The notes beneath the pieces were generated by a model. It was not told the DNA's origin, searched no databases, and saw only the letters and a program-made list of their open reading frames with translations. From contig JABBOE010000025.1 of assembly GCA_019351955.1 (NCBI GenBank), positions 1 to 34,902 of the forward strand: a DNA stretch of 34,902 nucleotides. The letters are read 5' to 3'. A program made the position numbers and the translations under genes. This stretch comes from Pseudomonadota bacterium (lineage in GTDB: Bacteria > Pseudomonadota > Gammaproteobacteria > Burkholderiales > Burkholderiaceae_C). Shown here one piece after another: positions 16,333 through 18,889 of the stretch (its first letter is position 1; each line of letters opens with the position of its first letter).

Positions 16333-17544
16333 ATGCTTTTCCCGGTACAAAAGCTGATCGACTCGCTGCAAGCGCGTTGCGGCATGTCGTTTGCCATCCA
16401 ACTGCCGGATGGCAAACGCTACCGGACTGGCCCGGGCGATCCGTTGTTCAGGGTTTTGTTTCGGACCGACGCTGCGCTCCTGCAGGCATTTTCGCGCGGC
16501 CATCTGGGCATGCTGGAGTCGTATTTCGACCAGAGCCTGGATGTCGAGGGCGATCTCGGTGCGGCGCTGGCAGCCGGCATGCTCAGCGGTCTGGATATGC
16601 CAAAGACGCTGATCACGGCCGAAAACAGCATTCATGAATTGCGCAATTCCAATCGGAGCCCAAGCCAGGCCAAAGCCAATGCCCGTGCACACTATGGCCT
16701 GGGGGCCGGGTTCTATCGCCTCTGGCTTGACGATCCCCTGATGATGTACACGTGTGGCTATTGGCCTGACGGGACCCAGACCCTGGAGCAGGCACAGCAC
16801 GCCAAGATCGACCATGTCTGCCGCAAGATCCAGTTGGCGCGCGGAGAAAGCTGTATCGACATTGGTTGTGGCTTCGGGGGTTTTCTGTTCCGGGCGTGGG
16901 AGACGCTTGGTGTTTTGGGCACCGGTCTTAACACCACCACCGAGCAGGTTGAATGGCTGCGCGGTGAAATCACGCGTCGGGGCCTCACGGACAGGATCAA
17001 GGTGCGTGAGGCCGATTTTCGCGATGTTGATGCGCAGTACGACAAGGTGGTGTCGATTGGCGTGCTCGAGCATGCGGGGCGTGACCAACTGAGCGAAGTC
17101 GTTCGCGCGCATGCGGACTTTCTGAAGCCCGGCGGACTTGGCATGCTGCATTTCATCGGCCATATCGGCCAACGCGAGACGGATCTCTTCATTCGCAAAC
17201 ACGTTTTCCCCGGTGGCTGGATCCCGGCACTCTCGGAAGTGATCGTGGCGATGGAGCGTTGCGGGCTGGAGGTGGTGGATGTCGAGAATTTGCGGCGCCA
17301 CTACGCCTTGACGCTGGACGTGTGGGCCGAGCGGTTTGAAAAACAGTGGGCCGTGATCCAGGCGCTTGACCCGCAGCGCTTTGACGAGCGGTTCTACAGG
17401 GTGTGGCGGGTTTATCTGCGGGGCTGCGCCGAAATGTTCCGTTCATCCGCAGGCTATACACACTTGTTCCAGATCGTCTTCAGCAAGGGCAATATCACCC
17501 GGGACAACTACCCGATGAGCCGGGCGCATCTCTATGGTCACTGA
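16333..17544 (+). CDS. CFA-synthase-family SAM-dependent methyltransferase
   Basis: ARAHYGLGAGFYRLWLDDPLMMYTCGYWPDG...CIDIGCGFGGFLFRA...VSIGVLEHAG...FIGHIGQRETDLFIRKHVFPGGWIPAL, the CFA synthase pattern. ATG 16333 follows AAGGGGGGG. Confidence 0.92.
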   Translation: MLFPVQKLIDSLQARCGMSFAIQLPDGKRYRTGPGDPLFRVLFRTDAALLQAFSRGHLGMLESYFDQSLDVEGDLGAALAAGMLSGLDMPKTLITAENSIHELRNSNRSPSQAKANARAHYGLGAGFYRLWLDDPLMMYTCGYWPDGTQTLEQAQHAKIDHVCRKIQLARGESCIDIGCGFGGFLFRAWETLGVLGTGLNTTTEQVEWLRGEITRRGLTDRIKVREADFRDVDAQYDKVVSIGVLEHAGRDQLSEVVRAHADFLKPGGLGMLHFIGHIGQRETDLFIRKHVFPGGWIPALSEVIVAMERCGLEVVDVENLRRHYALTLDVWAERFEKQWAVIQALDPQRFDERFYRVWRVYLRGCAEMFRSSAGYTHLFQIVFSKGNITRDNYPMSRAHLYGH

Positions 17545-18889
17545 TGCATCTGGGTACGCTGCGCGCCAAGTTGCACTGGCCACACGGTTGCGTGCGCTCA
17601 GCGCAGTCGGCGCAGCACCGCTCGGTCTGGGCAAGACGAGTTCCAACTTGTTTCGCGATCGAAACGAGGGAGCCAAGCATAAGCTCGACCTGAGCGACTT
17701 TTGTCATGTTTTAAAGATCGACACTGAGCAGAACTGGGTTGACGTTGAAGGCTTGACAACGTACGAGGCGCTGGTGGCTCAGACGTTGAAGCGCGGGGTC
17801 ATGCCGGCCGTCGTGCCACAACTCAAGACCATTACCGTCGGAGGCGCAGCGGCGGGTGTCGGGATCGAAGCCACATCGCATCGGTGGGGTCTTGTGCATG
17901 ACACGCTGCTGGAGTTGGACGTGCTGCTCCCCGGGGGCGACATCGTGACCTGCCGGCCGGACAACGAGTATCGTGATCTTTTCTACGGCTTTCCCAACTC
18001 CTATGGAACGCTGGGCTATGCGCTGCGGCTGCGCGTGCGCACGCTGCCGGTCAAGCCATTTGTCAAAGTTGAGCATGTGCCGCACGAGGATTCGGTTTCT
18101 TTTTTTCGCGCCCTGGACGCGCGCTGCCAAGGCGACGCCGACTTTGTCGACGGGGTGGTCTTCGGGCCAAAGCAGCAGATTCTCAACGCCGGCTGTTTCG
18201 TCGATTCCGCCCCCTGGCTCAGCGACTACACCTACCAGCATGTCTACTACCGATCCCTGCTGGAAAGGCAGGTGGACTACATGCGCGTGCAGGACTACAT
18301 CTGGCGTTGGGATACTGACTGGTTCTGGTGTTCGAAGAGCGTGCATGCGCAGAATCGGCTTGTACGTTTTCTGCTCGGGCCGTCACGGCTCAATTCGCGA
18401 ACCTACACGCGGATCATGCGCTGGAATGCCCGCTGGGGCCTGACGCGCCGGTTGGCTTGTCTGCGTGGCCTGCATACCGAGTCCGTCATCCAGGACGTCG
18501 ATATTCCGGTGGCGCAGGCGCCGGAATTCCTGGCCTTTTTGTTCCGTGAGATCGGCATTCTGCCGATCTGGATATGCCCTGTGCGCGCCCCCCTGCCGCA
18601 GTCGCCGTTCACCCTATTCCCGTTGACAGCCGGCACCCGGCATGTGAACTTCGGCTTCTGGGATGTGGTGCTAAGCAGGCAGGCCCAGGAGCCCGGTTAT
18701 TTCAACCGCTTGGTGGAGCGTGAGGTGGTACGGCTTGGCGGCATCAAGTCTCTCTACTCCGAAAGTTACTTCACTCGGGAAGAATTTGCGAGTGCTTATG
18801 CGATGCAACAATATGAAGCGCTGAAGGCGAAGTACGACCCGTCAGGGCGCATGTTGGGTATGTACGAAAAGTGCGTGCTGAAGGCGTGA
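17534..18889 (+). CDS. FAD-binding oxidoreductase (DHCR24/BfaA-TmsA-like)
   Basis: LGLGKTSSNLFRDR...VDVEGLTTYEALVAQTLKRGVMPAVVPQLKTITVGGAAAGVGIEATSHRWGLVHDTLLELDVLLPGGDIVT...DLFYGFPNSYGTLGYA, an FAD_binding_4 pattern of the DHCR24-like type. Start overlaps the methyltransferase stop by 11 nt. Confidence 0.9.
   Translation: MVTDASGYAARQVALATRLRALSAVGAAPLGLGKTSSNLFRDRNEGAKHKLDLSDFCHVLKIDTEQNWVDVEGLTTYEALVAQTLKRGVMPAVVPQLKTITVGGAAAGVGIEATSHRWGLVHDTLLELDVLLPGGDIVTCRPDNEYRDLFYGFPNSYGTLGYALRLRVRTLPVKPFVKVEHVPHEDSVSFFRALDARCQGDADFVDGVVFGPKQQILNAGCFVDSAPWLSDYTYQHVYYRSLLERQVDYMRVQDYIWRWDTDWFWCSKSVHAQNRLVRFLLGPSRLNSRTYTRIMRWNARWGLTRRLACLRGLHTESVIQDVDIPVAQAPEFLAFLFREIGILPIWICPVRAPLPQSPFTLFPLTAGTRHVNFGFWDVVLSRQAQEPGYFNRLVEREVVRLGGIKSLYSESYFTREEFASAYAMQQYEALKAKYDPSGRMLGMYEKCVLKA

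Follow-up and report, generated by a model that had tools for sequence, protein, structure and literature searches.

A two-gene operon in the window (the whole stretch of DNA that was analyzed, 34,902 nucleotides [nt] long) is predicted to be a two-step module for mid-chain methyl-branched fatty acids, a variant of the BfaAB system with its genes in reversed order (probability, about 0.8). The first gene codes for a methyltransferase (MT) resembling cyclopropane fatty acid (CFA) synthases and the second for a flavoprotein of the BfaA family (the FAD protein). The pair lies directly after aioXSR on the same strand, with 254 nt between the aioR stop and the MT start; this position, the coordinates and strand of both genes, and their 11-nt overlap are as the initial annotation gave them. 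Kinship points to a betaproteobacterium of the Burkholderiales type as the host. The locus is laid out as follows.

16333 to 17544, + strand: predicted CFA-synthase-like, SAM-dependent fatty-acyl methyltransferase (MT), 403 amino acids; CMAS domain PF02353, E = 6.7e-71
17534 to 18889, + strand: BfaA-family FAD-dependent oxidoreductase, predicted methylene-fatty-acyl reductase of the VAO/PCMH fold, 451 amino acids; FAD_binding_4 domain PF01565, E = 1.1e-13
17534 to 17544, + strand: 11-nt overlap of the two coding sequences, ATGGTCACTGA, read directly from the sequence
16249 to 16332, + strand: upstream segment common to the window and the aio-less locus of a congener (G749); the blastn match with L215 starts at 16249
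16049 to 16249, no strand: module boundary; the homology of other aio loci stops at 16029 to 16049, and that of the aio-less MT-FAD locus begins at 16249
12322 to 16078, + strand: aioX-aioS-aioR, on the same strand as MT-FAD
11576 to 12145, − strand: aioB, which passes the NCBIfam arsenite oxidase cutoff
9024 to 11546, − strand: aioA, which passes the NCBIfam arsenite oxidase cutoff

The longest open reading frame (ORF) of MT starts at 16177, ahead of 16333. The start at 16333 is supported because the MT ORF of the congener G749, likewise of 403 amino acids, opens at the equivalent codon and because AAGGGGGG stands immediately 5′ of the ATG at 16333. The 84 nt common to G749 (16249 to 16332) probably provide the pair with its own leader and ribosome-binding site, and the overlap of the two genes is consistent with translational coupling.

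PF01565 is the sole Pfam match of the FAD protein, which also matches the NCBIfam DprE1 profile weakly (54 bits versus a cutoff of 500). The AlphaFold2 model (pLDDT, 88.8) has a VAO/PCMH fold, and Foldseek placed cytokinin dehydrogenase and DprE1 nearest to it (TM-scores of 0.6 to 0.7); yet these best structural matches share only about 14 to 17% identity with it, act on other substrates, and are recognizable by sequence only over the FAD-binding half. A profile search of the PDB turned up no solved structure related over the full length. At least 591 relatives were obtained from GTDB genomes, and an alignment of 40 diverse family members, spanning betaproteobacteria to actinobacteria (Burkholderiales to Amycolatopsis, Actinomadura, Nocardia, and Tsukamurella), contains 66 invariant columns as well as strongly conserved blocks, for example, WRWDTDWFWCS. 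Identity to the window protein is about 50% for the Amycolatopsis and Actinomadura members and ranges from 40 to 50% in actinobacteria. The reference for BfaA was the syntenic Tsukamurella ortholog, not the BfaA/BfaB sequences of M. chlorophenolicum or T. curvata themselves, and is 43% identical to the window protein over 98% of its length. The Tsukamurella locus reads recR-ybaB-Rv3717-type amidase-SRPBCC-FAD-MT-dnaX, and the same gene set has been drawn around bfaAB, M. tuberculosis and A. orientalis included (PMC5660069). Because it is homologous to the FAD gene product in this published synteny, and because so many columns are invariant across the 40 members, we assign the window protein by sequence to the BfaA (10-methylene reductase) family, and its reductase activity is predicted from this membership. 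The reductase was found in 245 of 251 genomes of the Actinomadura family, and 10-methyl fatty acids are a known chemotaxonomic trait of the Actinomadura group. We know of no assay of a BfaA homolog from proteobacteria.

The neighborhood of the FAD gene was surveyed at 80 loci on contigs of other genomes, 75 of which had enough flanking sequence to be informative. A CFA-like methyltransferase gene adjoins the reductase gene on the same strand in 57 of these 75 loci, and the pairing is therefore far beyond chance. The methyltransferase gene mainly precedes the FAD gene in proteobacteria, Nitrospira, and Acidobacteria and follows it in actinobacteria. Clustering of the neighbors of 96 loci revealed no recurrent third partner, only the methyltransferase being common, and the pair therefore appears to be a self-sufficient two-gene module. 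At 17 loci with room on both sides, the FAD gene has no adjacent methyltransferase gene; the informative loci outside the 57 are mostly gammaproteobacterial and alphaproteobacterial, with the FAD gene alone. BfaA-family genes lacking an adjacent methyltransferase gene (L047, L056, L058, L061, L063, L064, L067, L068, L074, L077, L079, and others) come mostly from gammaproteobacteria; the neighbors of the lone gene, named by eye only, resemble an NADPH-dependent FMN reductase at L058, L061, and L063 and a gamma-glutamyltransferase at L074, L077, and L079.

MT retains C141, E246, H273, I275, and Y324 of the bicarbonate site, which we take to correspond to the ligands C139, E239, H266, I268, and Y317 of E. 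coli Cfa, and its closest PDB matches are solved CFA synthases. With the CMAS domain and the full ligand set that it shares with E. coli Cfa, Pseudomonas CfaB, and Brucella Cfa, MT could be read as an ordinary CFA synthase, next to an FAD protein that is unrelated or modifies the chain further, and two E. coli-type Cfa proteins without a reductase also carry the Thr residue described below. We nevertheless consider an ordinary CFA synthase unlikely. A BfaA-family reductase is adjacent across phyla and to three lineages of methyltransferase, which is hard to explain if the product needs no reduction. The scores of MT against the NCBIfam equivalogs Cfa, CfaB, and CPFASynBruc (256 versus 650, 238 versus 400, and 235 versus 600 bits, respectively) are all far below cutoff, and the genome already has other CFA paralogs. 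MT further differs from the Cfa proteins in forming a separate clade, in having Thr for Ser before the Cys, and in its conserved reductase partner. The other CMAS proteins of the host genome group with methyltransferases unlinked to the reductase, and the MT of the pair is therefore not the housekeeping Cfa.

The descent of MT is also distinct from that of BfaB. It is 33 to 35% identical to actinobacterial BfaB and 35 to 37% identical to two CFA paralogs encoded in the host genome; its product cannot be read from its ancestry because it is no closer to BfaB than to these ordinary CFA synthases. A tree of 64 sequences (TmpB and UfaM are not among them) divides the reductase-linked methyltransferases into three or more distinct groups: actinobacterial BfaB; a beta/gammaproteobacterial type that includes the window MT; and a type of Nitrospira, Acidobacteria, and candidate phyla near E. 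coli Cfa. A single clade of all reductase-linked methyltransferases was rejected by the AU test (P = 2e-51), as was a joint clade of BfaB and the window type (P = 5.2e-8), both P values being indicative, as the groups were defined after a first tree had been inspected. We conclude from these trees that the window MT is not a BfaB ortholog but a predicted functional analogue of BfaB with a separate descent. The reductase tree departs from the MT grouping in places, and one locus (L078) combines a reductase of the proteobacterial kind with a methyltransferase of the Nitrospira kind; partners have therefore been exchanged. The proposal of the initial annotation that the pair is a 10-methyl fatty acid module, with phylogeny as a check, agrees with the placement of the FAD protein in the BfaA family and with the conserved operon; it does not extend to MT, which falls outside the BfaB clade, or to the gene order, which is the reverse of bfaAB. 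The same annotation named BfaB/BfaA and TmsB/TmsA as such pairs in actinobacteria and some proteobacteria. TmsA/TmsB is a discarded older name of BfaA/BfaB; the system that has been described from proteobacteria is TmpBA, and TmpA and BfaA are not homologs (PMC7791843).

With the 10-methyl stearic acid operon of Mycobacterium chlorophenolicum and Thermomonospora curvata (BfaA/BfaB; PMC5660069, PMC7791843), the window pair shares the reductase family, an adjacent CFA-like methyltransferase, and overlapping genes. It differs in that bfaA precedes bfaB there, with a 4-bp overlap (PMC5660069), whereas MT comes first here, as well as in the CFA lineage of its MT and in its proteobacterial host. The TmpBA operon for 10-methylpalmitate (Marinobacter, Desulfobacter, and Thiohalospira; PMC7791843) is similar in having the methyltransferase before the flavoprotein and proteobacterial hosts, but TmpA resembles geranylgeranyl reductases (PMC7791843), whereas the window flavoprotein belongs to the BfaA family, with a PF01565 match only and a VAO-type fold. 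The window pair represents a third arrangement, in which a BfaA-type reductase is combined with a proteobacterial CFA-type methyltransferase and the genes are ordered as in tmpBA.

In the proposed pathway, MT would use SAM to methylate a monounsaturated acyl chain, bound in a phospholipid, at its cis double bond, and the intermediate would lose a proton to give an exocyclic methylene rather than close a cyclopropane ring. The BfaA-family flavoprotein would then reduce the methylene to a saturated methyl branch with NADPH, which is the electron source of BfaA (PMC7791843). The branch would lie at C10 or C11, depending on the position of the double bond, and overlapping translation may keep methyltransferase and reductase in step. 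In this reading, the neighboring aio operon is a separate module that ended up ahead of the pair. Rhodobacter UfaM/UfaD follow the same general plan, in which phospholipid acyl chains are modified first by a SAM methyltransferase and then by an FAD enzyme (PMC7380195), and the pair might by analogy make furan or diene fatty acids, with the FAD protein as a dehydrogenase. We regard furan or diene products as very improbable, as UfaD has an NAD-FAD-binding domain and is related to phytoene dehydrogenase (PMC7380195), whereas the FAD protein here belongs to the PF01565/VAO-fold BfaA family, and neighbor clustering brought up no recurrent third partner.

Threonine directly precedes the bicarbonate-binding Cys in all 39 reductase-linked methyltransferases sampled (T140 in the window), whereas unlinked CMAS proteins have Ser at this position (S138 in E. 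coli) in 23 of 25 cases and Thr in 2 of 25; the contrast comprises only about three independent transitions (P = 0.25, paired sign test). We suggest tentatively, and at somewhat less than even odds, that the change from Ser to Thr is a marker, and perhaps a contributing cause, of the shift from closing a ring to forming a methylene, and that mid-chain methyl branching is a widespread and modular trait in which one reductase family has been joined by CFA-type methyltransferases recruited at least three times. If so, the same gene pair would account for orphan lipids, among them the 11-methyl-hexadecanoic acid found in Nitrospira. The repeated pairings and the Ser/Thr difference make the choice between ring and methylene in CFA-fold enzymes directly testable by point mutation. 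Two CFA-type proteins of the E. coli lineage without a BfaA neighbor, from Methylohalomonas lacus (L241) and a Sphingobium plasmid (cfa; L266), read YTCGYW versus YSCAYW and are useful controls for the Ser/Thr question.

Nitrospira moscoviensis and its relatives are known for 11-methyl-hexadecanoic acid (PMC5516240). Three Nitrospira-type metagenome-assembled genomes (L090, L091, and L099) carry the reductase-methyltransferase pair, which would be an obvious candidate for the genes behind this lipid. To our knowledge, no genes have been assigned to it so far. A literature search for 10-methyl lipids in Burkholderiales yielded nothing useful. The presence of 10-methyl fatty acids is used as a biomarker of actinobacteria and sulfate reducers. 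This use would lose strength, and gene markers could take its place, if a BfaA-type module is carried by many beta- and gammaproteobacteria, by Nitrospira and Acidobacteria, and by candidate phyla.

The initial annotation had linked the pair to arsenite oxidation through remodeling of membrane lipids and had suggested a survey of aioR neighborhoods for the same pair. Among the 28 genomes of the genus searched, 3 (the window genome, G727, and G749) have the FAD gene, and the linkage is confined to two species, those of the window genome and G727. G727 has the window arrangement, with about 96% identity from position 8773 to past 28000. In G749, the segment that stops at 5190, behind panD, is separated by ∼315 bp from the segment that runs from 16249 on, giving the order panD-MT-FAD-D-serine-dehydratase-like gene with no aio between, and no aio match at the DNA level was found elsewhere in this incomplete assembly. 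In G734, also an incomplete assembly, a DUF2784 gene comes directly after panD, and both aio and the pair are missing at this place. Homology to the aio locus in other species of the genus stops at 16029 to 16049, where aioR ends, and these species lack MT-FAD. Outside the genus, no aioBA was found near the FAD gene in the 80 contig neighborhoods or in the same-family loci examined; one genome (G214) has both aio and the FAD gene, on different contigs. The position of the pair beside aio is most likely a recent, unconserved neighborhood of separate modules, not a sign of shared function. Stepwise accretion at one chromosomal site is the simplest history, and loss in G749 and G734 is a possible alternative. 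Known arsenic islands with aioBA-aioXSR and ars genes (PMC3834237; Thiomonas ThGEI-O, PMC2829063) are likewise composites assembled from modules; the fatty acid pair is not reported there, and the full text of PMC3834237 does not mention cyclopropane, fatty acid, or methyltransferase. The arsenic link turns out to illustrate how islands are put together, not a function. A gene of the D-serine-dehydratase/alanine-racemase fold (19018 to 20301) lies directly downstream of the pair and is present in all three congeners with the pair; outside the genus, none of the scanned loci had such a gene close to the pair.

The published AioR consensus is GTTN10AAC (PMC5335332). Two such sites, at 12260 and 12292, lie between aioB and aioX, upstream of aioB: the palindrome GTTACGAATGCGTAAC at 12260 to 12275 and a looser second copy at 12292 to 12307, with related sites in congeners. 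The first has the form GTTWCGN4CGWAAC, which recurs at the equivalent place in several congeners, and is a good candidate for the AioR operator of the genus. A sigma-54-like sequence is present upstream of aioB as well (12175 to 12160). The gap between aioR and MT (16079 to 16332) contains no GTTN10AAC site, and a sigma-54 scan of the gap found no match comparable to that upstream of aioB; cotranscription of MT-FAD with aioXSR is possible but unsupported. A perfect AioR-type palindrome, GTTTCGCGATCGAAAC, occurs inside the FAD gene at 17650 to 17665. It overlies the codons of a conserved LFRD stretch and is kept in the aio-less G749 with one spacer base changed; we set it aside as an AioR site, as the conserved codons explain the motif, which is probably a coding coincidence.

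Membership of the pair in the AioXSR regulon, with membrane remodeling during arsenite oxidation, would be compatible with methyl-branching chemistry but is in our view quite unlikely. The same-strand position close behind aioR in two species and the palindrome within the FAD gene would agree with it, as would the ars genes that accompany the pair in all three species having MT-FAD (those of G749 are on another contig, which breaks within the D-serine-dehydratase-like gene) and a cyclopropane-containing lipid of Agrobacterium that rises with As(III) (PMC7533571). Against it stand the aio-less pair that G749 has at the same locus, the other aio loci of the genus without the pair, the lack in the gap of AioR sites and of a sigma-54-like match equal to that before aioB, and the persistence of the internal palindrome where aio is missing.

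Three further features of the window were observed. About 50 nt at 3095 to 3145, ending in GGTTCGATTCCAGCCGGGCGCACCA, resemble the 3′ half of a tRNA gene, match several congener genomes at 94 to 100%, and adjoin an integrase gene (1843 to 3024, − strand); ARAGORN found no complete tRNA in the window, and the segment is probably what remains of an attachment site for the adjacent tyrosine recombinase. The match of an RND efflux permease ORF (5237 to 7546, − strand) to its profile begins only at position 325, and the permease is therefore N-terminally truncated. At 7364 to 7377, the flanks of a junction lie 18.3 kb apart in G727 and overlap by 14 nt at the junction, which suggests a deletion in the window or an insertion in G727.
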